This document shows, one piece after another, positions 2 through 35,678 of a stretch of DNA of 41,604 bases. This DNA comes from a virus, in IMG/VR virus record IMGVR_UViG_3300048446_000527, positions 1 through 41,604 of that record; one strand, written 5' to 3'. The position numbers were made by a program, and so were the translations under genes. Each line of letters begins with the position of its first letter. The stretch's first letter is position 1. Under the pieces are notes generated by a model that saw only the letters and a program-made list of their open reading frames with translations, did no database searches and had not been told where the DNA came from.

Positions 2-3000
2 ACGAGTCAAACCCTAGATGGTAAGCCTACCTTTATCAAAGGCATTCCATTAAAGTCGGGCAGATTTGACATAAGAGGCAATAGCGGAATATTTGCTCAA
101 CACTTTAATAATATCGTCTCAGAGATGGGCGGTAAGAAGTATGAAGTAACCCAAGAAACTAGACAAACTAGTGGTGGTCAAAAGAAGAAGAAAACACTAA
201 AGAAGAATGAGTTTATATCCTACAGCAACTCGGTAATCGAGGATAGCGTAGCAGGTGTTCAATTTAGCATAACAAGTTTCGGTGGCTCAAACATGTCGCC
301 GAAGGAGTACTTGGAGAGCGAACTTATACCACTTACAGATGATGACACACTAAAGCAGGTCAAAGAGCTTGGATTGCTTGGTGAGGGAAATGTTAGCGGG
401 TATTCAAAAAAAGCAATAGTTGTAGTGGATCATTATGGTCGTGTCGCAGTACGATCAATCTTCTATAAAAACAAGAGGAAGAAAGATGGTAAGTTACTAG
501 ATGAGATAAAGAAGCTGAAAGAAAAGAATCATTTCGGTTTCGGTAACTACAATCTCGTCATTCATAAATCCTCAGTAAGAAACAGTGGGGTATTTAATCC
601 ATTCTCAAAGCCCAACCCAAGTGATGTATCGAGTAGCTTTTCAACTGAAGGGCAAAACCAGGGTAGTCCTTTTGTAGATAATGGAGATGGTGTACAGGTT
701 AGAGGAGATTCAACCTTCAGGGTAGTTGGTCTTCTGGAGAGTGAAAACTTTTTTACTGCTAACTCAAACTTCGCAACCATGCAGAGCTTCATGGACGCAG
801 TTCGTGAGCAGAATGTAAAAGCTGTAGAGAATGGTCATCCTAAATATAGATTCGATAATGATCCTGAGAATGAGGAGCTTACAGATAGTGGAGGTTACAA
901 TCCATATGCTCACCTTTATTTTCCGCCTGACCAAAGAGAAGCAGCTAAAGCAGATATAGCAAAGTTTGCTGAGAGAAGAATATATGAGATTAAAAGTTTC
1001 ATACAACAAAAGCTGGCTGAGAATAAATATGCTGAATTTCCTGAGCTATCGGCATATCTTGATTACCTTACTCAAGGATTAGAGCAGGGCGGTCAGGTTC
1101 GCATAAGAGAGCTTTCCCAATTTGAACAACTTTGGGCTGCTCGCAAGCGTGCAAAGAATGGCGGTAAGCTCAACCTCGGTGCGGATTATGAGGAGCATAT
1201 GTATAATGGTAAGGAGGGTAATAATCCTTTCCTTAAGAAACTTTTTGGCGGAAAGAAAACAAGCCAGGGTATTGCAACCAAAGATAAGAATCCTAACTCT
1301 AACCTTCCGTATTGGTGGAGTGAGTTCAAGTCTTATGGATATAAGACGCTAAGGAATATACTTTTTGAAGATGGTAGTATACCTGACGAAATAAAAGACC
1401 GCCTGATCAAGCAGTATGGAAATAAGCTACCTGAGCTTTATAAGCTAGATATAACTGAAGAGGGTGCGATCTATAATTTCTTCATGGAGAATGGTGGAAT
1501 ACCTCCATTGCCCACCAAGGAAGAGATGTTGATTATGGCTGAGAAGGTCAGGCAGGCTGTCGAGTTAAGAAACCTACTTAATGTTTCTGAGCAAGAAGGT
1601 GCAGTGCATCAGGACATACTAGACATTCTTTACTGGTACTTTTTTGATTCTGATAACACAGAGCGTGTTAGTCCTGCTGATATTACTGAAGAACAAAAGG
1701 CTGAGATTCAGGAAGAGATAAATGAAACAGTCGACGGCACTGAGGATGAAAGCTTAGGCAAAAGCTATAGCGATGTTCTTGATAGTCTAAATGACCGAAT
1801 CGAGGGATTAAAGGAAGACAACAGAAAGATAATTCAGAATACTAAACAGGGTGATGTAATATCTCAGGATCAGATCAATATAGCTAAAGAGATACAGGAC
1901 TTAGAGGAAAGTAAGCGATTGGTTGAGGAGAAGATCCAAAAAACAAAAGAGTTTTCTGAGGGTATTCTTAATAGGCTAATTGATGATCCATCATTCAGGG
2001 AGAGCTTTGAGAAAAACTATGACCCCGATGAACCAGCTAAGGCTGTTGGTGGTGGAATCAATAAGGATGCTGTACGATCGGCTTCTGCTCAGTTAGGCTT
2101 GATAGATATAAGTCAGTCCACTGAGCTAGATATATCTAGAGTAAAGGCCGAGCTTAGTACTTGGGAGGACACATTTCACGCAGGGCATGGATATCAAATA
2201 TCGACATTAAGGTCGGAGGACATTCTTTCTGTTAGTAATGAAAGTCTAGCAAGTACTCTTCTGGATATGCAGGAGGAAGTAGGGCATGCTCCACTAGCGG
2301 TAGGCAAAATACTTTCTGAGGGTGATAGCCAGCCATCATTGTTCTTGGAGAAATGGAGGTCTGACCTAGAGGATGCTACTGGAAGAAATGTTTATGAGCA
2401 TGTTAGCAAGGCAGGGACAGACAAGAAGATTGTTGATGGAGAAGAGCAGCAGGATGGTGGCTTGCGTGCAGGAATCTACGATGGTGATACCACCCAACTC
2501 ACTACTAGGGTCACCGCTTCACAGAGGGTAGGTGCTGAACGTGAACCAAATCCTGAAGTCGCAGCACAGGAGAGTGACCGCATCCGCACACAATTCCTAC
2601 AGGGTGCAGAACCAGGAAAAGTAATCAAGGGATACGATGCATTAGTCCGTGCAATCAAACTGGTAGATGATGAGAGTACCGCAAGGGTACTGGAGATGCT
2701 ACAGCCACTCCGTAAGCAACTTAATGATGTTGATGTAGTATGGGCAACTGACGAGCAATGGGCGGCTGTTACTGAGCAACTCCGTATTGAGAAAGAGCGT
2801 GCGGGGCAACCTGTGCCTACAAGGTACGGGCAGTATAGTCCTTTATCTAGGGGCGGAGAAGAAGACCCACATATCATGATGGGTAACTATTACGGTTATG
2901 TTAAGTCTGACGGAACAGAGATGACAGAAGCCGAAAGACTCCAGCACATGATCAAGGTGCTAGCGGAAGAGCTTCAGCATGCCGTATTGTACACAACCAT

Positions 3001-6000
3001 AGATGCCTTACATAACTACAGAAGGAACGGATTCCTACCAAGCCACTACAAAGGTAAGTTAAGCATAAAAGACTTTGAGTACTTAAGTAAATCATCAGGA
3101 GCTATCTTTGACTTCCTTAGAGAGAAGTACGCCAAAGAAGGCAAGTACTCTGAGATATTAACTAGTGAGCAGGAGATGTGGGCAAGCTATGCAATAGACG
3201 CCAACTTCCGTGCAGAGATAGAAAACTTAAAGTTACCCAAAGAGTTTCGTGCTAGATACCGAACAACCCTCCAAAGGGTAGGTGACTTCTTCCGCAGAAT
3301 ACTTTCCCGTATATTTACAGGCATTCCAGAGGCATCAATCCTAGAGATGATGGATGACCACCTGAAGACATTCTTTAAGGACTCAAATAAGATCAGTGGT
3401 GAGAATCATATATTCCTTATGAGTTCACTGGAGAGCCAGCCAATACTGGCATCTCAGCAGTTCTTTGATTTTTGGGAAGGTAAGAGTGAGGGTAAAGACC
3501 CTGACCCTGTAGAAGACGATGATTGGAGAGCACCCACATATCAGGAATTTTACAGAATACCAAAAGAAGCAGTAGCGAATCGAGACTTCCAAACAATTGC
3601 CCGTAGTTATTTATCAAGAACAACAATTGATAATGATCAGTCTGATATGATTTCAGGCACAGCCCTGACCTTGGCAGGAGGATTAGGCTTAAATAAGGAA
3701 GGTGATGTTGATCGACTAGCTAATGCTATCCGAGCACAGCTTGGCATTTCTCGCCCAACGCTTGGGTCTGATATGTATGATCCTCCAAAGTATCGTGACT
3801 CAGCAAACGCAAGATCAATGATCGAAAGGGCGGGCACAGCTGAAGAAAAGGCAAGACTCGAAAGATTTGTAGATGACCAAACTAAGGTCATGGAAAAGAG
3901 GGTTTCCTCGAAGGTAAATATATATAACGAACACCTTAGGAAGGATGTCATCAGTGATATAAAAATGATTTTCGAATTTGGCGATCTGACTAGTGATACT
4001 GTTAAGAGGTTAATTCGTAGAACAAAAGATCGTATCGCAGATTCCTACAAAGATGCGTGGAGTGGTCGGGAGCCAATGTCAGATTTCGAAAGACAATTTC
4101 CTGATGGAGCTAAATATGTAGAAAACTATGCAAAAAAAACTTCTGCTTCCCTTCTGAATCTACTGGAAAGAGTAGAGAAAGGAGAAGCGACAGAGCAGGA
4201 TGTTGATAAATTTGCATTAGAGATGCGATCCAAGCCAACGCTTGGGTCTGATATTGGTTCGCGAGTAGATATTGAACTTACTGACTCGGATTTAGAGGAT
4301 GCAATGGATGGTAAATTTCAGGATTCATCCGCTGGGGGCATTAGTTGGTTTTCTCCAGCTTTTCGCAAAGCGAGAAGGGTAGCTGGTGAATTAGGTATTC
4401 AGTTAATTTCGGCCAAGGAAAAAAAGCGAACATCAGCGGGTCGTGAGTTATTTCAGGGTGGGGCAAGATTTGAGATAGTCGTTCCGATAGAGCCGAACGG
4501 GATGGTAAATAATAAGTACAGAAAGCTATTAATAGACGAACTTCGAGACATTACAAAATCCACAGAAACTAGAAATATTAAGGTCGATTCTGAAACCTCA
4601 GATAAAAAAGAGGACAGAGAAGTAGTAGTCTTGGGTGAGGCCCGTCAAGAGCAAGATGGCTCTATTAAAATTCAATCAGGTAGGGAGTATAGTCTTGTAA
4701 GGGATGTAATAATAAGTACCCAGTATAAAGCACAAGGCGGCGGTCGTTTTGTTGGCGGAAGTAACTTCCATCGCTTCGAGAAGGTATTAAAGGAAGCACT
4801 AAAAGTAGATAGAAATGTTAAGTTATCCGAAAACTCTTATGGTCGATACATATCTGACAATCTTATGGATAAGAGTAATCTTGAGGAAACCATTCCATCA
4901 AATGAAGCTATTGATGAATTAATAGAAGCTGGAATAGGCACCCTTGGGACACAGAAAAAATTTAGAGGAAAGGAATACATAGAATACCTCGAAACAATAA
5001 AAAGCATTACTGATAGTGTTGATGTTAAGTTCACAACAGATATGCGTAAGGGGAATGCAGGTTTTTGGCGAATAGGTGGTAAAACAGCCTATGTACACCC
5101 AGCATATAGAGCGACTTCCACAGGTATACATGAGATAGTTCATGCAACTATTGGAAATAAACTTGAAGAAGTTGGCTTATCCTCACGGTTAAAGGGAGAG
5201 GAATACTTGGAATTTATCTACGATCGCTCACAACAATTAGATGAAAATGATCCAATAAGGGCTTACCTTGAAGCGTACCTGCAAGCTGTTGATAATATAT
5301 CGAGTAAAGAAGATCGTGCTTTAATTAACGATTGGGCAAGAGATGAAAGTGATCAATTTATTTACACAAAGCGAGGCGGAACATACGGTGTATTTAATAT
5401 TCATGAGTTTGCTACTGAGATTTTCTCAGACAATGCTTTCCAGAAAGCACTCGCTGATATTAAAGTGCCTAAGCACAAGGAGTATAAGAACCTTTTTACA
5501 TTTGTAGTCGATGCTATAAGAAAGCTACTTAATTGGGATATATCACAGACTCTTCTTGAGAAAGGGATAATGGCTAGTGCTGAGATTATGGGTGAGGAGT
5601 ATACCGCATTAAGACCTGATGATCCTGAAGGTATATTTGGCGATCCAGGTACTGATATAGTCACTGACATGCGGGGAAATTTTAACAACTGGATGGACGG
5701 TGGGATGGAATTAGATCGTGATCCACAGTATATAGCCAAAGCATCCAGATCTATTATCAACAATAACGCACCTTACAAGGATGGTGGTGACCTGAAGGTA
5801 TACAAGGCTGACCGCGAGTTACTTAGACAATCCAAAGGTGTAATTAACCCTAATAGTCAATCTATCTTAGCAGGTCGCAGGGCAGCAAGAAGAGCGTATG
5901 TAGACGGAGTTGGTATGGTCAATTCACCAACATTAAACTCCGAGATGTACTCTCACACCCCAAGCAGGAGTGAGGTCGAGCAAAACTTGCAGAAGGAATA

Positions 6001-9000
6001 TGCAGCGTTGGCTGAGTTAATGAAGGTACTAACGGAGGCGACATCCACACTTCCTGAAGAGCTACAGAATGAAATTACCGAGAACCTTTTAAAGAACAGG
6101 CTGTCTGTTACGACTTCAGGTAAATTGAATCTCAATCTCGCCCTCAAAGCTGCCAAGCAAAAGCTCAAGAAGGGTCAAAACATTAAAAGGACTGCTGACA
6201 GAGAGCAGGCGTTATCCAAGATGCTTGAAAAAGAAGAGGCAGAACCGATTGATTCAATCGGAAAGTTTGCTACCACCGCAGAAAGGATGCGTGTCGCTAG
6301 AAGAACTCTGGAGCTAATTGAAGGCTCAAAGCGTGAGATTACTAAGCTGATGGAAAAGACCGACAAGATTGTGAAGAAGTCGGAGGAAGAATTAGCGAAG
6401 AACAAGAAGAGACTTGAAGACTTAGCATCAGGAAAGAGATATGATCCTGATAAGGTTAAGAAGCTTGTGGAAAAGAAGCTGAAGAGCTTAATCAATAACA
6501 CCCGATACAACAATCTTGCGGGTATGCCTGATTACAATAAGGGAGAGTTCATTGATAACCTCCGTGCTAATAAAGTGTACGAGGTACTTCAGGCAATAAT
6601 CGAAGGGGGTATGGCTCCAGAGCAGATGTCGAGACAGGAGATATATGATGCTCTTGAGGGACAGGTATCGTCGGCTGATATGTTTGAGGGGCTAACTGGC
6701 GAGAGACAGGATAATGTTGTTCGTGCCTTACTCGCTGAGATGCTACACAAGGACACCAAGAATAAAGCTAGGTCTGCATTTTCTATTGAGATGAGACTAT
6801 CCAAGAATGCACCAACCCGTGCATTGAAGCTGGAAGTAGAAGCTCTCAGACAGGCAGCAATATCAGATGATTGGAAGGATGTGTCCACCACAGGAATCCT
6901 TGGTAAACAGATAGATGAGGTTAAGCAGGTTCGTAAACAGATGACCGCTCTTAATCAGAAGATTGCCAAGCAGACACAATTGATGCCACTAGGCAAGCAT
7001 CTCATTGAGAAGTATAATGAGAGGTCTATGCAGATCGAAGACTACCTTGGTTCTGTGATTACTCCAGAGGTAGCCGTGGGTGATATGGTTGATATGCTCG
7101 ACCTGGATAAGGAAGGAAACATTGTACCAATAAAAGTTAAGTACATGGTTTCAGGGAAGGGCTACACTGAGTTTGTGCAGAAAGCAAACAGGATGAAGGC
7201 TATCCTTGAGAATCCCAAGCATAAGATATCGGATGCCCACAGGGATGCTTTTGCCAGAACCTATGCATTGATTGAACAAGGCTTGGCTAAATCCTATGAT
7301 GCCACATTTACAGGTACTATGTTCTCGTACCTTGAGTCATTCTCGCAGGTTGTTTCTCGTGCAGGTGATGAGGAAGCCTTGATGATTTCCACAATGATCA
7401 ACCGACTGAATACAGAGCTTAGACAGTATGGATCAAATGCAGTGAGGCAGGGACACTCAGTAAGTAGAGCATGGTACAACCTACAGGCTGAGTTACGGAA
7501 TGGTGCAGGTAAAAAACTTTCGCTCGAGCAAATCCAGCAGTATCTATTTGATCCATTCATGGCATATGTCGAGGGGCAACCCAAGATTGATGACCTTAAT
7601 TCGTTGGCTGAGGACTTTTGGTCTACTCTTAAAAGGCAAAGATTTAAGATTCATAACGATGATGCGAAGGCAAAGAAGAGATGGATGGAGCTTGTGCAGG
7701 AGATACAGGTAGCCAATAACCTAATTCAGAAGACAGCCAAAGAATTTAATATACCCATCGAGGATAGTATAAAGATCATGGATCCTCTGCTTCAGAAGAG
7801 AACACTTTATAGAGGCCAAATCCCAATAGGTGCATTGACTCTTCCTCGGATGCTGATGGTACAAAACCTCAGGGATGCTAGTCGTGCTTTAACGAAGAAT
7901 GATGAAAAGACTAATATCTTTAATCAGATAGTAAAAAGCATCAAAGAGAAGACAGATAAAAATGATCCTTTATTTGAGGAGGACTACGATAGAAACTCTT
8001 TTCAGGCAGAGTTATCAGGATGGAAATTATCAAGTGATGTAGAACTTTTCTTTCTTGAGCCTACCCTTAATGACTATAGCAACCCACGTAACCTTGGGTG
8101 GATGATGGGTGAGAGGCTTGTGTCTATGGATGAGGTTTCGGAAGCTTGGAATAATTCTGAGGGTGGAGATGTGGGTGCTAGAATTTATCAGACGATAGCC
8201 GAACTGATGCCCGATAATGTATCCAAGAAAGATTTCGTAAAGAACGGATTAGACTTTCTGACACAAATAAACAGTCGTGCGAATGCGATAGTCAAGAAGT
8301 ATGACGAGTACGAATCGAAAACAGCAGGGAGTAAGGAAAACCCAAATGCTATTATATACAAGGCAGAGGTCTGGAACTCTTTAAACTCACGGGACGAAAG
8401 TGTATCACTACCTAGTCATTTCTTCACATACAGCATGATGACAGAAATCGACATGAGGCAGATGGTAGCCAAGATGCTCATGGCTCATCACTTTGGCAGA
8501 AATCAGGAGAAGCTCGATGCTGCCTATAAAGAGTTGTTGAATAAGGAGAGAGAGCTAGAAGCTGAATGGGATGTAATCTATAGGAAGATAACAGATGAAC
8601 CATACCCATGGGCAGATCGTGATGACAATGAGCGCAACTTAGATAGCAGAAACTTCTTTAATATTCAGGCGACCAAGAAGTTTGGACTACCTCGTGCCTT
8701 ACGAAAGAAAATAACTTCTGATGAGTATGAAAAGCTCAAGAGCCTTTACACAAAAATCTATGCATTGAAAGAAGCACAGAAGATGAAGCCCGCCTTTGCT
8801 GCATATGCTAAGACTCAGGGTTCTGTTCTTTCTGATGAGAGGGCAGCAGTTGAAACACTACAGACTATTTCTAGCCTCTTGGTAGCGAATCCCAAGTCTG
8901 CTATAATGAACTTGGCTTCCCTGTATCAAATTTTTCAGCTATATGATTTACAGCCTGCTGGCTTCAAAGCTGCATTTAATGTTCTGAGAAGAATGCCAGT

Positions 9001-10870
9001 TGAAGCACTTGACACAATCATGCAGGGCTTTGGTAAGAATATGTTCTCCGCAGGTAAGAAGCAGTATGGAGAGGAAGCACTGGCTCCGCTATGGACATCA
9101 TTAGAGACAGCCACATCAGATAGATTTAGTGATGCTGGAGCTAAGGGTGTGCTAGGTGAAAATACCAAAACCTCCTCAATGCGTAAGTTCACAAGAATGC
9201 TACGCACGGCTCTACAGAGCGGTCTTAAAATCCCAGGCGTAAACAATCGGGTAATCAACATGATCTTAAATGGCGAGCCTGGGAGAGAGAAACTTGCGGA
9301 AGAAGGTACTTTGACGACTGCTCCTGGTTCAATGCTTACCTTCTCTTTAATCCCTGGATTCTCTAACCTTTTCTCATGGTTAAGTAATGCTACGCTTAAG
9401 CATACCACGCTTGAAGTATTGGCTGACCTGAAGAGAAGGGTTGAGGGGGCAGCGCATACCCTTGACCAACTGGGGATTGACCCAGAAGACAATGGCTATG
9501 AGTTGAGTTCTGAGAACATGGGGTACTCTAATAACTTCTTGGGCGTAAGTCTCAGAGATAGTAAAGAAGTAAATGATCGTATTGATCGTGAGCTTGCCAA
9601 CTTTGGTCTTTCGATCACTAAGCTTGCACAGGACTTCAGAAGGAGAAGAAAGGGTGACCTCAGTGCTGATCCTATTCTTGATAAGAACAAGTTAGTTGCT
9701 GCACATATAGCAAGTACCCAAATCACATTTGATGGCACGAGTGCCAAATCAAGGATTCTTGACACCAAGGGCGGTATCTACGCCAGCCCACTTCTTGGAT
9801 GGTCTACCAGTATGGCCGCTCATGCCAACCGAAAATTCCGTGGTGATAGCAGGGATGCAGTTGATCCTAGCAACATAGATACTTACCGAGCCTTTGGAGT
9901 CTTTGCACTATCTGCACTGGCAGTTGGTGTGCCTATCTCATTGTTTGTCATGCGTGGCAGTGAGTTGTATGATGAGGAGGTTCTTGGTAAAGACCCAGGT
10001 CTTGGCTATGTGCCACCTGAAGCATACTTACCATTTGGCTTATTGTTTGCAATAAACGACCCAGCCTTCAGGACACTCAGCTTGGTGGAGAGGCTTGGTA
10101 GGACATCATCGTTTGGTGGTATATATCAGGAAATGGCAACCAATGCATTGCTTGGTGCTACAGGTGAATCATTTCAACGGGACATTACTAATCGTATTAT
10201 GCTAATAAGTATGGCTAGTAACTTGAGTGATGTGTTCCTGAACTACCTGAGTGCAATCGACACTCGTTCGGCTGATACATTTGCACCTGAGTATTCCTCA
10301 GTCATCAGACCACTTATGAATATTGTGGGCATGAACAATGTCATACAATTCGCCCAGTACTCAAATAACTTACTAGGCACAGAAGACTTTCCATTATTCA
10401 GTTCAGAATACAAGGTTACCAATGTTCTGAATCAGCGTAACAAGTTGCGGGCAATCACCAAAGCTATTGGTATTGAGACGCAGAAGGTTGGGGGAGGACT
10501 ATCTTATCGACCCAACGCTATGTCCATAGCGATACGGGAAATGGAAAGGTCTGCATATGTGGGAGACAGGGACAGCTTCTTGGAAGCATATCGGTTAGCG
10601 TTGCAACTATCCGACGATGCCGATCCTAAGAAAGATGTCGCAGATAGATTTAAAAGAAGAAACTTAAGGAACGGAGTAAGTAAATACGCATTGGGTGATT
10701 CGGATTGGATTAAACTATTATCAGTTCTTGACCCCGAGGACAGAAATGACATCGAAGATGCGTTACTAAAGCATTCCTATTATCTACAACTCATAGGAGG
10801 AAAGCCAAAGGGAGAGAGCAGAACCAAGAGAGTCCAAATAGACGATCTGAGGAGACAAGCTTTATTATGA
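2..10870 (+). CDS. Giant multidomain (polyvalent-type) phage protein, 5' end cut by window edge
   Basis: The first in-frame ATG is at 125 (3,581 aa), but the frame stays open through every codon from base 2, so the true start lies left of the window and at least 3,622 residues are visible. Numbering from ATG 125: a zinc-peptidase-like HExxH is seen as H1669-E-I-V-H1673, followed by H1760-E-F-A-T-E. A similar but altered arrangement lies at E948-E-L-Q-H952 with Q1016-E-M-W. Residues about 1940-2130 are Lys/Glu-rich and probably coiled coil. A hydrophobic stretch at 3258-3276 could cross a membrane. The motif P-T-L-(G/N)-S-(D/E) recurs at 1211, 1371 and 1935. Size, mixed domains and phage setting fit the large polyvalent proteins that phages and conjugative elements are thought to send into the host with their DNA. 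Alternatives are an internal virion or tail-tube protein. It ends in an ATGA overlap with the next gene. Confidence 0.9.
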   Translation, partial: TSQTLDGKPTFIKGIPLKSGRFDIRGNSGIFAQHFNNIVSEMGGKKYEVTQETRQTSGGQKKKKTLKKNEFISYSNSVIEDSVAGVQFSITSFGGSNMSPKEYLESELIPLTDDDTLKQVKELGLLGEGNVSGYSKKAIVVVDHYGRVAVRSIFYKNKRKKDGKLLDEIKKLKEKNHFGFGNYNLVIHKSSVRNSGVFNPFSKPNPSDVSSSFSTEGQNQGSPFVDNGDGVQVRGDSTFRVVGLLESENFFTANSNFATMQSFMDAVREQNVKAVENGHPKYRFDNDPENEELTDSGGYNPYAHLYFPPDQREAAKADIAKFAERRIYEIKSFIQQKLAENKYAEFPELSAYLDYLTQGLEQGGQVRIRELSQFEQLWAARKRAKNGGKLNLGADYEEHMYNGKEGNNPFLKKLFGGKKTSQGIATKDKNPNSNLPYWWSEFKSYGYKTLRNILFEDGSIPDEIKDRLIKQYGNKLPELYKLDITEEGAIYNFFMENGGIPPLPTKEEMLIMAEKVRQAVELRNLLNVSEQEGAVHQDILDILYWYFFDSDNTERVSPADITEEQKAEIQEEINETVDGTEDESLGKSYSDVLDSLNDRIEGLKEDNRKIIQNTKQGDVISQDQINIAKEIQDLEESKRLVEEKIQKTKEFSEGILNRLIDDPSFRESFEKNYDPDEPAKAVGGGINKDAVRSASAQLGLIDISQSTELDISRVKAELSTWEDTFHAGHGYQISTLRSEDILSVSNESLASTLLDMQEEVGHAPLAVGKILSEGDSQPSLFLEKWRSDLEDATGRNVYEHVSKAGTDKKIVDGEEQQDGGLRAGIYDGDTTQLTTRVTASQRVGAEREPNPEVAAQESDRIRTQFLQGAEPGKVIKGYDALVRAIKLVDDESTARVLEMLQPLRKQLNDVDVVWATDEQWAAVTEQLRIEKERAGQPVPTRYGQYSPLSRGGEEDPHIMMGNYYGYVKSDGTEMTEAERLQHMIKVLAEELQHAVLYTTIDALHNYRRNGFLPSHYKGKLSIKDFEYLSKSSGAIFDFLREKYAKEGKYSEILTSEQEMWASYAIDANFRAEIENLKLPKEFRARYRTTLQRVGDFFRRILSRIFTGIPEASILEMMDDHLKTFFKDSNKISGENHIFLMSSLESQPILASQQFFDFWEGKSEGKDPDPVEDDDWRAPTYQEFYRIPKEAVANRDFQTIARSYLSRTTIDNDQSDMISGTALTLAGGLGLNKEGDVDRLANAIRAQLGISRPTLGSDMYDPPKYRDSANARSMIERAGTAEEKARLERFVDDQTKVMEKRVSSKVNIYNEHLRKDVISDIKMIFEFGDLTSDTVKRLIRRTKDRIADSYKDAWSGREPMSDFERQFPDGAKYVENYAKKTSASLLNLLERVEKGEATEQDVDKFALEMRSKPTLGSDIGSRVDIELTDSDLEDAMDGKFQDSSAGGISWFSPAFRKARRVAGELGIQLISAKEKKRTSAGRELFQGGARFEIVVPIEPNGMVNNKYRKLLIDELRDITKSTETRNIKVDSETSDKKEDREVVVLGEARQEQDGSIKIQSGREYSLVRDVIISTQYKAQGGGRFVGGSNFHRFEKVLKEALKVDRNVKLSENSYGRYISDNLMDKSNLEETIPSNEAIDELIEAGIGTLGTQKKFRGKEYIEYLETIKSITDSVDVKFTTDMRKGNAGFWRIGGKTAYVHPAYRATSTGIHEIVHATIGNKLEEVGLSSRLKGEEYLEFIYDRSQQLDENDPIRAYLEAYLQAVDNISSKEDRALINDWARDESDQFIYTKRGGTYGVFNIHEFATEIFSDNAFQKALADIKVPKHKEYKNLFTFVVDAIRKLLNWDISQTLLEKGIMASAEIMGEEYTALRPDDPEGIFGDPGTDIVTDMRGNFNNWMDGGMELDRDPQYIAKASRSIINNNAPYKDGGDLKVYKADRELLRQSKGVINPNSQSILAGRRAARRAYVDGVGMVNSPTLNSEMYSHTPSRSEVEQNLQKEYAALAELMKVLTEATSTLPEELQNEITENLLKNRLSVTTSGKLNLNLALKAAKQKLKKGQNIKRTADREQALSKMLEKEEAEPIDSIGKFATTAERMRVARRTLELIEGSKREITKLMEKTDKIVKKSEEELAKNKKRLEDLASGKRYDPDKVKKLVEKKLKSLINNTRYNNLAGMPDYNKGEFIDNLRANKVYEVLQAIIEGGMAPEQMSRQEIYDALEGQVSSADMFEGLTGERQDNVVRALLAEMLHKDTKNKARSAFSIEMRLSKNAPTRALKLEVEALRQAAISDDWKDVSTTGILGKQIDEVKQVRKQMTALNQKIAKQTQLMPLGKHLIEKYNERSMQIEDYLGSVITPEVAVGDMVDMLDLDKEGNIVPIKVKYMVSGKGYTEFVQKANRMKAILENPKHKISDAHRDAFARTYALIEQGLAKSYDATFTGTMFSYLESFSQVVSRAGDEEALMISTMINRLNTELRQYGSNAVRQGHSVSRAWYNLQAELRNGAGKKLSLEQIQQYLFDPFMAYVEGQPKIDDLNSLAEDFWSTLKRQRFKIHNDDAKAKKRWMELVQEIQVANNLIQKTAKEFNIPIEDSIKIMDPLLQKRTLYRGQIPIGALTLPRMLMVQNLRDASRALTKNDEKTNIFNQIVKSIKEKTDKNDPLFEEDYDRNSFQAELSGWKLSSDVELFFLEPTLNDYSNPRNLGWMMGERLVSMDEVSEAWNNSEGGDVGARIYQTIAELMPDNVSKKDFVKNGLDFLTQINSRANAIVKKYDEYESKTAGSKENPNAIIYKAEVWNSLNSRDESVSLPSHFFTYSMMTEIDMRQMVAKMLMAHHFGRNQEKLDAAYKELLNKERELEAEWDVIYRKITDEPYPWADRDDNERNLDSRNFFNIQATKKFGLPRALRKKITSDEYEKLKSLYTKIYALKEAQKMKPAFAAYAKTQGSVLSDERAAVETLQTISSLLVANPKSAIMNLASLYQIFQLYDLQPAGFKAAFNVLRRMPVEALDTIMQGFGKNMFSAGKKQYGEEALAPLWTSLETATSDRFSDAGAKGVLGENTKTSSMRKFTRMLRTALQSGLKIPGVNNRVINMILNGEPGREKLAEEGTLTTAPGSMLTFSLIPGFSNLFSWLSNATLKHTTLEVLADLKRRVEGAAHTLDQLGIDPEDNGYELSSENMGYSNNFLGVSLRDSKEVNDRIDRELANFGLSITKLAQDFRRRRKGDLSADPILDKNKLVAAHIASTQITFDGTSAKSRILDTKGGIYASPLLGWSTSMAAHANRKFRGDSRDAVDPSNIDTYRAFGVFALSALAVGVPISLFVMRGSELYDEEVLGKDPGLGYVPPEAYLPFGLLFAINDPAFRTLSLVERLGRTSSFGGIYQEMATNALLGATGESFQRDITNRIMLISMASNLSDVFLNYLSAIDTRSADTFAPEYSSVIRPLMNIVGMNNVIQFAQYSNNLLGTEDFPLFSSEYKVTNVLNQRNKLRAITKAIGIETQKVGGGLSYRPNAMSIAIREMERSAYVGDRDSFLEAYRLALQLSDDADPKKDVADRFKRRNLRNGVSKYALGDSDWIKLLSVLDPEDRNDIEDALLKHSYYLQLIGGKPKGESRTKRVQIDDLRRQALL

Positions 10871-21959: not shown

Positions 21960-22399
21960 GCTGTAAGGGGTGTATCCTTCTCATACTCAGGATGTCCCTT
22001 GAATTTCTCCAAGTGTTCATCACAAGCAGAAGGATTCTTGAGGCGATAGCCTAAGAACTTCACGATAGCTTCCCTTTCTTTCATAAGCCCTAGCTCCTTC
22101 TCCTGAGCTTCAGCCCTACTAAGTTCTCCATCTTCGGAGAGACAAGCATCGTCATCTAAGCTGATGAGCACATCCTTGTATCTCCTTATGGCTTGTATTT
22201 CCCGTGTAGTATCAAGCGTCATGCATAACTCACCTGCCGTGTTCACAGGTTCGTTAGCGGGATTGATTTGATTCTGACGCTCGATGTCCATGTCCGACAT
22301 ATATGACATCTGTATTCCTTTTAGTTGTGCTATGTACTTCTCTGTGGCGTCCACAATCTGTTGGTTCGCCTTTACGAAGCTATTCAATTGGTTAATCAT
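21938..22399 (-). CDS. Hypothetical protein, 153 aa
   Basis: Helical, acidic-polar protein starting in an ATGA overlap with the upstream gene. A GGAGG lies 13 nt before the ATG, farther than usual. Contains I-Q-A-I-R-R-Y-K-D-V-L-I and E-R-E-A-I-V-K-F-L-G-Y-R-L. No family recognised. Confidence 0.65.
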   Translation of the reverse strand: MINQLNSFVKANQQIVDATEKYIAQLKGIQMSYMSDMDIERQNQINPANEPVNTAGELCMTLDTTREIQAIRRYKDVLISLDDDACLSEDGELSRAEAQEKELGLMKEREAIVKFLGYRLKNPSACDEHLEKFKGHPEYEKDTPLTAWDSPWT

Positions 22400-22893
22400 A
22401 ATGACTTAACAGCCTCCAATGCTTTTCCTGGCATAGGAAGGTTACGCTTCCTCATCAGGTGTTTGTTCACCTCAGCCATCATGACCATTTTGTTTTGTAT
22501 ATGATCAAGCTTGCGTTGCTCGTCATGACTCATGCCATCACGAGACACGCAGGACATACCAACAACTCTGCGTTCCCATTGCTTGATGTCCTGCTTGACC
22601 TTCTTATCGTTATGTGAGGCTACTTCTTCGCGTTGCAACACTCTAAAGCCCTCACCATTCATCCCTCGTTCAGTAGTAAAGAAGCCTCTACCCTCTAACA
22701 TCTGAGACACCTGCATCCACATGAATGCAAACTTAGGATCAACAATGCCATGTACTAGCCTAGGCATATCAGCAATCTCCTCAATGATGTGCCATTTAAC
22801 GACCTCACCATAGTCAATTGCATCCTCCAGTTGTTCGAAGACATGCTTCTCTACAGGATATTTACGAGTGGGTAGTAATGTAGACCTACTCAC
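22396..22893 (-). CDS. Hypothetical protein, 165 aa
   Basis: GTG start overlapping the previous stop (GTGA). Mixed alpha/beta composition with W-H-I-I-E-E-I-A-D-M-P and a basic C-terminal helix. Not recognised. Coupling at both ends (GTGA in, ATGA out) places it firmly in the leftward operon. Confidence 0.65.
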   Translation of the reverse strand: MSRSTLLPTRKYPVEKHVFEQLEDAIDYGEVVKWHIIEEIADMPRLVHGIVDPKFAFMWMQVSQMLEGRGFFTTERGMNGEGFRVLQREEVASHNDKKVKQDIKQWERRVVGMSCVSRDGMSHDEQRKLDHIQNKMVMMAEVNKHLMRKRNLPMPGKALEAVKSL

Positions 22894-23474
22894 TTGACGA
22901 CATTAGTTACTACAAACTTACCGAAACGCCCACGCTTCTCAGGACGCCAGTCACCCATACCGATAATTTTCCCGGCAGTCTCCGCAAACTTGATGACATC
23001 ATCCTCATCGATACCATCCACATCGATCAGTAGATTAATAGTGCCTGACCAGCCCACTGGAATCTTAGGACGAGTCCGTGCTATCTTTGCAGTACCTACT
23101 CGACAGATTCTCCTGTCCCTCATATCAGGGTCTTTCTCAAGCTTATCGAACTTAGTGGAGTTCTTGAACTTGATTGCCATATCATCATCCACAAGGATGT
23201 GTATGGATTGAGCACCTTGCTTCGTTTTCTTAGCGGCAGCCAATAACATAGCCTGTAGGTTCTCGGCAGGCATGAATACACCAAGCTTGTCGTCCCAATA
23301 CAGACCTGCTCGCCACTCTATATCCCCCATAAGGGCGTGATCTTCATCGGTCTTGTTGCGTTTCCCTGATACTTTCTTGAGTTCTTTACTGAACTCATTC
23401 AGTGGGTCAGCAGTCTGACCATTGTGTAATAACATGGGAGTAATCCCTTCTACATCTATACTTATTTTTTTCAT
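22890..23474 (-). CDS. Conserved phage protein, P-M-L-L-H-N type
   Basis: 194 aa. A recognisable phage-protein pattern: G-I-T-P-M-L-L-H-N-G near the N-terminus, E-W-R-A-G-L-Y-W-D, P-A-E-N-L-Q-A-M-L-L-A-A-A-K, and a C-terminal G-M-G-D-W-R-P-E-K-R-G-R-F-G-K-F. The glycine-rich end and the opening strand recall RAMP/Cas7-like RNA-binding folds, but that is a guess. The ATG has no Shine-Dalgarno; it is preceded by an A-rich leader and by the pseudoknot array described below. Confidence 0.7.
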   Translation of the reverse strand: MKKISIDVEGITPMLLHNGQTADPLNEFSKELKKVSGKRNKTDEDHALMGDIEWRAGLYWDDKLGVFMPAENLQAMLLAAAKKTKQGAQSIHILVDDDMAIKFKNSTKFDKLEKDPDMRDRRICRVGTAKIARTRPKIPVGWSGTINLLIDVDGIDEDDVIKFAETAGKIIGMGDWRPEKRGRFGKFVVTNVVK

Positions 23475-23569: not shown

Positions 23570-23608
23570 AAATAGTCTGGATTGTTTAACGACTGCCCAG
23601 TCAGTCCC
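23570..23608 (-). repeat. Pseudoknot element R1
   Basis: One of four 39-nt copies. On the minus strand GACTG pairs with CAGTC (S1, loop begins with A), and CTGGG pairs with TCCAG with one G-U (S2). The 9-nt third loop is A-rich. Followed by ATTT as in the other copies. Confidence 0.8.
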
Positions 23609-23673
23609 ATGCCTCGCCTCGCCAGACATCGCCAAAGCCATGCGTGTCCTCGCCATTGCAGGCCTCGCCCCTG

Positions 23674-23712
23674 AAATACTCTAGGTTATTTATAGACTGC
23701 CTAGTCAGTCCC
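23674..23712 (-). repeat. Pseudoknot element R2
   Basis: Aligns to R1 without gaps. S1 GACTG/CAGTC; S2 is CTAGG/CCTAG, a compensated change relative to R1. Third loop TATAAATAA. Confidence 0.82.
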
Positions 23713-23792
23713 TCGCCAAGCCTGTCCTTTATACGCCCCTCCGGTCCGTGCAAATCCTCACCTCACCTACCCAGTCAGCGCAGCGCAAACCT

Positions 23793-23831
23793 AAATAGTC
23801 TGAGTAGTTTTACGACCGCTCAGTCAGTCGA
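23793..23831 (-). repeat. Pseudoknot element R3
   Basis: S1 is GACTG/CGGTC with one G-U on the minus strand (a C-A mismatch on the plus strand, which fixes the strand). S2 is CTGAG/CTCAG, again a compensated change. Third loop GTAAAACTA. Confidence 0.8.
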
Positions 23832-23943
23832 TTGGCTTGTCAAGCAAGGCCTCTCTCCTCACCGCCTTTCCGCTTCACGCCAATCCCTTCAGCTCAGTTC
23901 CGTTCACAGCCATGCCGTTCACCGACTTGCTTCTCCGATCCTT

Positions 23944-23983
23944 AAATACTAGGGGTTGTTTATCGACTGCCCCTACAGTCTCC
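23944..23983 (-). repeat. Pseudoknot element R4
   Basis: S1 GACTG/CAGTC; S2 is AGGGG/CCCCT, extendable by one pair. Third loop GATAAACAA. It is one base longer than the others in plain alignment, but the fold is the same. Confidence 0.78.
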
Positions 23984-24033
23984 TGCCACGCATCGCATTG
24001 CACTGCATCTCCTGTCGGTTGCACGCCATTTAC

Positions 24034-24109
24034 AAAGTGATAGGAAGCCTCGCACCCGAGTGTCGGTGTTGTTTTAGAGTCATCCAAGGGCTAACCACCC
24101 GAGGCTTCC
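24034..24109 (-). other. Long hairpin H1 with 15-nt sequence shared with H2
   Basis: GGAAGCCTCG (24043-24052) pairs with CGAGGCTTCC (24100-24109). An inner stem lies in the loop. The hairpin begins 8 nt after the stop of the 24118 gene on the minus strand. The 15-mer AAAGTGATAGGAAGC at 24034-24048 recurs exactly at 27053-27067. It could be a terminator-like 3' end, but the tail TATCACTTTG is a weak T-tract. Confidence 0.65.
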
Positions 24110-24117
24110 TAAAATTG

Positions 24118-26826: not shown

Positions 26827-26876
26827 ATTACCATTCCTAGCCTAGCCTCACCTAGCAGGGACTTGCTTTGCTTTGC
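26827..26876 (-). repeat. Five-base periodic GG-rich tract (short)
   Basis: On the plus strand successive pentamers mostly end in CC, CA or CT (TTACC ATTCC TAGCC TAGCC), i.e. GGNNN units on the minus strand. It lies in the leader of the 26785 gene. Followed on the minus strand's upstream side by AAGTATTT, similar to the tail of the pseudoknot elements, but no pseudoknot is formed here. Confidence 0.6.
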
Positions 26877-27010
26877 CGAGGCAGTAAATACTTGTGAAGC
26901 CACCCTACACGCTCCACAACGTCGTGTCCCAACCCGTATAACCGTATGACACGCCCGTGTTTGTTTGTTTGTTTGTATTAATAACCCAACCTAACCCGCA
27001 AATTGAAGGA

Positions 27011-27061: not shown

Positions 27062-27096
27062 GGAAGCGAACAGCTGGGGGACAACTGCTCGCTTCC
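27062..27096 (-). other. Hairpin H2, 15-bp stem on the minus strand
   Basis: On the minus strand GGAAGCGAGCAGTTG pairs fully with CAGCTGTTCGCTTCC around a 5-nt loop, using two G-U pairs. On the plus strand the same positions are A-C mismatches. It is followed by TATCACTTTCC and shares an exact 15-mer with H1. Confidence 0.7.
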
Positions 27097-35271: not shown

Positions 35272-35319
35272 TGATTAACATTTAGGCATATAAACCTTAA
35301 TATCCCTTTCTGTTAATCA
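35272..35319. repeat. Inverted repeat, 9 bp, 30-nt spacer
   Basis: TGATTAACA (35272-35280) and TGTTAATCA (35311-35319), overlapping the end of the 35317 gene and lying upstream of the 35249 start. TGCATGATA also occurs on both sides (near 35254 and 35325). It could be an operator or an RNA hairpin. Confidence 0.5.
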
Positions 35320-35478
35320 GGTTTTGCATGATATATCAGTCTCAGAATCTGGCCCTGGACAATCACACTCAGCGTAATGTTCTTCGCATTCATCACACCA
35401 AGGTTCTCCACAATCAGGGCACTCCTCGCATTCCGATGCAAACTTTATAGGTTTCCTTGCCTTGCCTGTCCGTTCCAC
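35317..35478 (-). CDS. Zinc-ribbon-like acidic Cys-rich protein, 53 aa
   Basis: Chosen start is a GTG at 35478, with AAAGGAG 4-5 nt upstream. The distinct part is C-E-E-C-P-D-C-G-E-P-W-C-D-E-C followed by C-D-C, a cysteine-rich acidic module that surely binds metal. The N-terminal ten residues are encoded inside the pentamer tract and are of low complexity. No function known. Confidence 0.5.
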   Translation of the reverse strand: MERTGKARKPIKFASECEECPDCGEPWCDECEEHYAECDCPGPDSETDISCKT

Positions 35479-35536
35479 GCCGCTCCTTTCACTTCCCGTC
35501 CTTGCCTGACCGTGCCTCACCGTACCTTTCCCTACC
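35452..35536 (-). repeat. Five-base periodic tract, 17 consecutive units
   Basis: On the plus strand 16 of 17 successive pentamers end in CC (the exception is TTTCA at 35487-35491), so the minus strand reads GGNNN in perfect phase over 85 nt. The three variable bases differ from unit to unit. It separates the lipoprotein gene from the zinc-ribbon gene and overlaps the start of the latter. Confidence 0.85.
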
Positions 35537-35537
35537 T

Positions 35538-35678
35538 TTATTTAAGAAATTCGTCCCATATAAACCATGTTCTGTCTACTGGATGATTAGGACATGGCCC
35601 ATGTCCCTCAGCAGGGCATACATGCTTTGTTGTAGCACACCCGCTACACATAATGATTATTAGCAGCACTCTACTCAT
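35538..35678 (-). CDS. Small lipoprotein, 46 aa (spanin-like candidate)
   Basis: A short ORF overlapping the kinase stop by 8 nt. Signal peptide M-S-R-V-L-L-I-I-I-M-C-S-G-C14 ends in a lipobox-like C-S-G-C, with lipidated Cys at 14, followed by A-T-T-K and a short Pro/His-rich periplasmic part. Length and shape fit Rz1-type outer spanins, but no inner spanin or lysis gene is nearby, and the -3 Cys is not the usual Leu. Other small phage lipoproteins (for example superinfection-exclusion types) are alternatives. Confidence 0.6.
   Translation of the reverse strand: MSRVLLIIIMCSGCATTKHVCPAEGHGPCPNHPVDRTWFIWDEFLK

Follow-up and report, generated by a model that had tools for sequence, protein, structure and literature searches.

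What are four closely spaced RNA pseudoknots doing in a noncoding stretch of a phage genome? The question is raised by IMGVR_UViG_3300048446_000527, an IMG/VR virus record analyzed over positions 1-41,604 (41,604 nucleotides; hereafter the window), in which the element under study lies at 23,570-23,983. The phage setting of the window is given by integrase, replicative helicase, and SSB-like genes, and no DNA similarity to known phages was found for it. The array region is noncoding, G-skewed, and near the replication genes; elsewhere, one open reading frame (125-10870, plus strand; 3581 codons) takes up about one-quarter of the window. A preliminary description had reported four minus-strand copies of a 39-nt element, beginning at 23570, 23674, 23793, and 23944. 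The four copies are present as placed, whereas the conserved pseudoknot unit measures 37 nt, as follows.

23944-23980, minus strand: pseudoknot tail R4, S1 GACTG/CAGTC and S2 AGGGG/CCCCT
23793-23829, minus strand: pseudoknot tail R3, S1 GACTG/CGGTC and S2 CTGAG/CTCAG
23674-23710, minus strand: pseudoknot tail R2, S1 GACTG/CAGTC and S2 CTAGG/CCTAG
23570-23606, minus strand: pseudoknot tail R1, S1 GACTG/CAGTC and S2 CTGGG/TCCAG

All four copies have the H-type geometry first ascribed to them, with a nearly constant S1 of 5 bp, a 1-nt L1, an S2 of 5 bp, and an A-rich L3 of 9 nt, and a constant ASTATTT follows directly after every pseudoknot. In R3, the 3' side of S1 reads CGGTC instead of CAGTC, giving a U-G pair. 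The pattern had no match in 100 shuffles of the window and, across the whole of IMG/VR, its corrected form found one further contig only, the 62-kb sister phage IMGVR_UViG_3300046170_000369, which has R2 and R3 unchanged and is without R4. Its R1 provides a further homolog with a compensated S2, CTGGG/UCCAG having become CAGGG/CCCUG (CAGGG/CCCTG in the DNA) while the sequence on either side is the same as in the window. S2 is distinct in each of the four window copies and always fully paired, and pair counting over these four plus the sister-phage copy (n = 5) found 100% of cells paired (50/50) and two-sided changes in 4 of the 5 S2 pairs. The covariation score was 0.460 versus 0.205 for shuffles, only 1 of 500 of which scored as high, and sliding the partners by 1-3 columns removed the covariation support, bar one pair at +1. 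The G-U pairs favor the minus strand, on which the neighboring genes also run, in agreement with the leftward transcription read from them at the outset. Folded by standard methods that exclude pseudoknots, single copies are unremarkable, as expected, since the elements are pseudoknots. These data support the view that the four elements are real H-type pseudoknots under selection for RNA structure, as the preliminary description had argued. Rfam gave no gathering-level match in the window and, at lax thresholds, only chance-level matches in the region. A tmRNA identity for the four pseudoknots was ruled out, ARAGORN calling neither tRNA nor tmRNA in the window. Promoter-like sites occurred at shuffle level, and no terminator-like site was found on the array strand.

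What identifies the system is a feature absent from the preliminary description, the 5-nt periodicity of the spacers. The copies are 104, 119, and 151 nt apart because guide tracts sit between them, in the form of pentanucleotide arrays of 10-18 units with the consensus A/C-NN-K-G (A 43% and C 42% at position 1, T 27% at position 4), which enter each pseudoknot in register when counted off five bases at a time along the minus strand, beginning at the pseudoknot start. Tracts scored 20.6-54.7 bits in a scaffold-weighted scan, in which ten shuffled windows reached at most 16.4, and the period-5 power of G was judged against 2000 dinucleotide shuffles. The tracts are listed below, those with tails being numbered as vrRNAs, a name introduced further on.

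23981-24030, minus strand: guide tract of vrRNA-4, 10 pentamers, 22.6 bits including the first pseudoknot bases
23850-23939, minus strand: guide tract of vrRNA-3, 18 pentamers (ATCGG ... AGAGG), 51.4 bits for the run 23840-23944
23830-23849, minus strand: extra pentamers of vrRNA-3 between guide and tail, CCTTG CTTGA CAAGC CAATC
23711-23790, minus strand: guide tract of vrRNA-2, 16 pentamers (GTTTG ... CGAGG), 40.0 bits for the run 23701-23790
23607-23672, minus strand: guide tract of vrRNA-1, 13 pentamers, runs of 20.6 and 21.2 bits
23510-23569, minus strand: fifth tract without a pseudoknot tail, 12 units, 34.1 bits
26831-26880, minus strand: orphan tract, 10 units, 24.3 bits, 3 kb from the array
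35455-35539, minus strand: orphan tract, 17 nearly perfect units, 54.7 bits, highest of all runs in the window

The register is seen in vrRNA-2, which reads GTTTG CGCTG CGCTG ACTGG GTAGG TGAGG TGAGG ATTTG CACGG ACCGG AGGGG CGTAT AAAGG ACAGG CTTGG CGAGG and then passes into GACTG. Its period-5 power (2.31) and that of vrRNA-3 (2.34) were reached by 0 of the 2000 shuffles, as was that of the fifth tract, which ends in a predicted GTGGAA/TTCCAC hairpin just before vipr. In vrRNA-1, one extra base after the seventh pentamer makes a 1-nt slip, and 32 of the 2000 shuffles reached its power. The G-periodicity of vrRNA-4 is weak when taken alone (141 of 2000); its units are AATGG CGTGC AACCG ACAGG AGATG CAGTG CAATG CGATG CGTGG CAGGA. 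The extra pentamers of vrRNA-3, judging from their letters, could form a hairpin between guide and tail.

The protein encoded next to the array points in the same direction as the tracts. Two genes follow on the same strand:

22890-23474, minus strand: vipr, a RAMP protein of 194 aa (phrog_4652), directly downstream of the array
22396-22893, minus strand: probable vap1-like accessory gene, 165 aa, overlapping the end of vipr

VIPR, a relative of CRISPR carried by phages, recognizes DNA by means of guide RNAs; it became known through a 2026 preprint (PMC13142463) and has been proposed as an ancestor of CRISPR. Its published scaffold is YNNGG, with 9-16 repeat units per guide (PMC13142463), so that vrRNA-3 lies above this range among the four guides of the window (10, 18 or 22, 16, and 13 units from vrRNA-4 to vrRNA-1). 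The Escherichia phage SUSP1 carries a type II VIPR (PMC13142463, PDB 36pp, KT454805), the guide RNAs of which, called vrRNAs, were detected by RNA sequencing, and the VIPR tail is described as invariable and structured, with a pseudoknot in the SUSP1 clade (PMC13142463). The window Vipr is 34% identical to that of SUSP1 over 192 aa (E = 1e-35), and a profile of eleven Vipr relatives matches the PDB entry 36pp, "SUSP1 Vipr protein" (E = 5.9e-55). An AlphaFold2 model built on the 11-sequence alignment reached a pLDDT of 90.2, replacing a three-sequence model with a pLDDT of 42, and its best Foldseek matches are Csm3/Cas7 RAMPs (E = 6.7e-7). The product of 22396-22893 has phrog_5926 as its best PHROG, with a weak match (E = 0.021); SUSP1 vap1 belongs to the same family (E = 1.1e-75), and the direct comparison of the two is likewise weak (E = 0.025), suggesting from sequence that 22396-22893 is probably a vap1-family gene.

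The tails themselves have counterparts in SUSP1. In its sequence, all four pentamer tracts run straight into an H-type pseudoknot with an A-rich L3 (e.g. GTAGT T AGTCTCA GCTAC ATTAAAA TGAGACT), and 2 of the 4 tails have a 5-bp S1, a 1-nt L1, and no L2. The tail rule holds for 11 of 11 tails, seven from the window and the sister phage and four from SUSP1, versus about 2.5% of random starts. Of 15 further loci with a Vipr homolog that were scanned, 14 also have strong xNNGG tracts close to vipr, the exception (L026) having xNNTG tracts only. Given three independent lines of evidence, namely the homology and fold of Vipr, the SUSP1 tails of the same rule, and the tracts near vipr in relatives, together with the period-5 guides in register with the tails, the locus taken as a whole is very probably a phage-encoded VIPR locus, likely of type II, in which the pseudoknots are the 3' tails of four vrRNAs. 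Several features sit less well with this identification, namely a scaffold looser than YNNGG, the slip in vrRNA-1, the weak periodicity of guide 4, and the weak vap1 link. The likeness to SUSP1 extends to a homologous phage-borne Vipr, NN pentamers with scaffold G's, four tailed vrRNAs with the A-rich-L3 pseudoknot right after the last guide unit, and a probable vap1-family gene directly after vipr. The two loci differ in layout, the window having its four tailed vrRNAs upstream of vipr whereas SUSP1 has one upstream and three downstream; in scaffold (A/C-NN-K-G versus YNNGG); and in their stems, S1 being constant and S2 variable in the window whereas both vary in SUSP1. The window further differs in its fifth tract without a pseudoknot before vipr and its two orphan tracts.

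The window itself shows the RNA structure with its covariation, the guide architecture, the homology and fold of Vipr, and the homology of the tails. If the locus is expressed and its RNA processed, and if Vipr binding, the skip rule, target type, and repression are as in the published SUSP1 system, one or more minus-strand transcripts would yield four vrRNAs, each with 10-18 pentanucleotides as its 5' guide, where NN alternates with a near-constant scaffold, and with an H-type pseudoknot as its 3' tail. Copies of Vipr would align along the guide scaffold and the tail would cap the complex, much as the handle of a CRISPR RNA does. Double-stranded DNA would then be read by the NN pairs, which skip one base from each pair to the next, and the gene so bound would be repressed; it would most likely belong to a competing phage, satellite, or prophage. 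Class 1 CRISPR-Cas systems (Cas7/Csm3 with crRNA) share with this arrangement the RAMP fold and the combination of a variable guide with a constant structured handle, whereas the window is without contiguous-complementarity spacers or palindromic repeats, has one short RAMP, and carries its constant part as a 3' pseudoknot. No guide targets were found in a local search of about 315 kb. Scans of IMG/VR with short exact seeds of 15-16 bases, one common to both guide-3 alleles and one of guide 2, gave chance-level matches only (16 and 19 contigs), and the remainder of each guide did not extend in these contigs; the failed search is weak evidence against a targeting function.

Other explanations have to be weighed against VIPR. 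The T4 gene 32 operator is an H-type pseudoknot upstream of its gene, and tandem pseudoknots in a vipr mRNA leader could by analogy act as an autogenous translational operator. The array does sit immediately before vipr, in the same orientation, and the 1-nt L1 and A-rich L3 recall gene 32-type pseudoknots. However, the T4 operator is a single leader element with no guide tract and an unrelated protein, whereas the protein downstream of the array belongs to the Vipr family of guide-RNA-binding RAMPs and a period-5 guide tract precedes each pseudoknot. In SUSP1, moreover, 3 of the 4 vrRNAs come after vipr and vap1, a position in which an operator in the leader would be senseless, which leaves this explanation highly improbable, although Vipr may bind its own leader as a side effect. 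The preliminary description had offered such an operator, an RNase-resistant element, or repeated protein-binding sites as possible functions; the first two give way to guide-RNA tails, every one of them with a tract of guide pentanucleotides before it, and the third survives in a broad sense.

Arrays of short H-type pseudoknots that a protein would recognize are also a feature of ToxI antitoxin RNA, in which the repeats lie adjacent to one another. A ToxI-like type III toxin-antitoxin RNA, made of toxin-processed inhibitory pseudoknots or serving as a phage decoy for host ToxN, would account for tandem H-type pseudoknots of about 37 nt with A-rich loops, which resemble antitoxin repeats (PMC8860590, PMC5086642). 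On the other hand, guide tracts separate the window copies, at distances of 104-151 nt, and no ToxN-like gene was found adjacent to the array, where the neighbor is Vipr, so that hardly any probability attaches to this role. A repeat acting at the level of DNA (iterons, or a replication origin with single-stranded hairpins) would suit a noncoding G-skewed region near replication genes but is scarcely credible in view of the compensated S2 changes, the G-U pairs on the transcribed strand only, the register with guide tracts, and the matching SUSP1 RNAs sequenced as RNA (PMC13142463).

Within the VIPR locus, the order in the direction of transcription is a fold, vrRNA-4, vrRNA-3, vrRNA-2, vrRNA-1, the fifth tract, vipr, and the probable vap gene. 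The fold lies just upstream of the array:

24041-24111, minus strand: four-way-junction RNA fold, -32.3 kcal/mol over 24035-24117, z = -4.7

A second strong fold (27062-27096, minus strand; z about -4.7) is also found upstream of pentamer tracts. Both folds start with GGAAGC and end with GCTTCCTATCACTTT, and an exact 13-mer, TTCCTATCACTTT, is common to them; they are possibly a shared regulatory or boundary element. Neither orphan tract was found to have a pseudoknot tail: the one at 35455-35539, 12 kb from the array, is without an H-type pseudoknot and is identical in a third phage, and no pseudoknot was found after the one at 26831-26880, which is conserved in two sister phages. Both are conserved in the third contig, IMGVR_UViG_3300047453_000635. 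The 17-unit tract runs into a Cys-rich open reading frame of 67 aa with several CxxC motifs, the start of which lies inside the tract (35317-35520, minus strand). Just upstream of the tract at 26831-26880, inspection by eye suggests a possible divergent pseudoknot (26889-26940, minus strand), ACACG/CGTGT with TTGTGGAG/CTTCACAA, ending in AAGTATTT, which resembles the ASTATTT of the tails.

Variation of the same parts is seen among relatives. For example, in three Vipr-bearing contigs (L021 5560-6010, L017 4480-5005, and L016 5550-5880), guide tracts are followed by an apparent tRNA-like minihelix instead of a simple pseudoknot, in which an acceptor-like stem of 6-7 bp closes a T-arm that carries TTCGA or GCGAAT (e.g. 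ACATGG...GGTTCGACTCC...CCATGT). L021 gave tRNA-Sec and mascRNA matches, both sub-threshold, and one minihelix element of L017 is called tRNA-Pro by ARAGORN. Such tRNA-like tails suggest RNase P/Z-type processing of some vrRNAs, of which the main text of the preprint makes no mention. The scaffold is ANNGG in L023 (5576-5926) and xNNTG in L026 (4865-4939 and 6027-6106), in the latter case on the strand opposite vipr and with a Vipr only 26% identical; these variants indicate that the pentamer scaffold itself evolves.

Comparison with the sister phage, about 97-99% identical to the window around the locus, shows that guides can differ within closely related genomes. Guide 1 is identical and guide 2 is wholly different. 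In guide 3, the 3' halves nearly match and the 5' halves differ, the 5-nt register being preserved. Over the first ten aligned units of guide 3, 12 of 20 NN bases differ versus 1 of 10 position-5 bases. Such change, concentrated in NN while register and tails stay, is what one would expect were NN to carry the specificity and the scaffold and tail to be under constraint. It is conceivable, but in our judgment rather unlikely, that these phages re-programme their VIPR guides in an active manner, swapping pentamer blocks without giving up register and tails; speaking for this are the replaced guide 2, the changed 5' half of guide 3, the gain or loss of vrRNA-4, and the swapped R1 tail. If a dedicated or recombination-based mechanism were responsible, it would amount to an acquisition-like process in VIPR, one that is absent from the main text of the preprint.

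VIPR is already known, and the window locus is an additional member, distinguished by a looser scaffold, an 18-unit guide, a constant S1 with a covarying S2, the placement of all tailed vrRNAs upstream of vipr, and tail-less and orphan tracts. As an independent case found from sequence alone, it contributes covariation in support of the pseudoknot tail and an example of a pentamer scaffold less strict than YNNGG, and the guides that changed between nearly identical sister phages open VIPR guide evolution to comparison.
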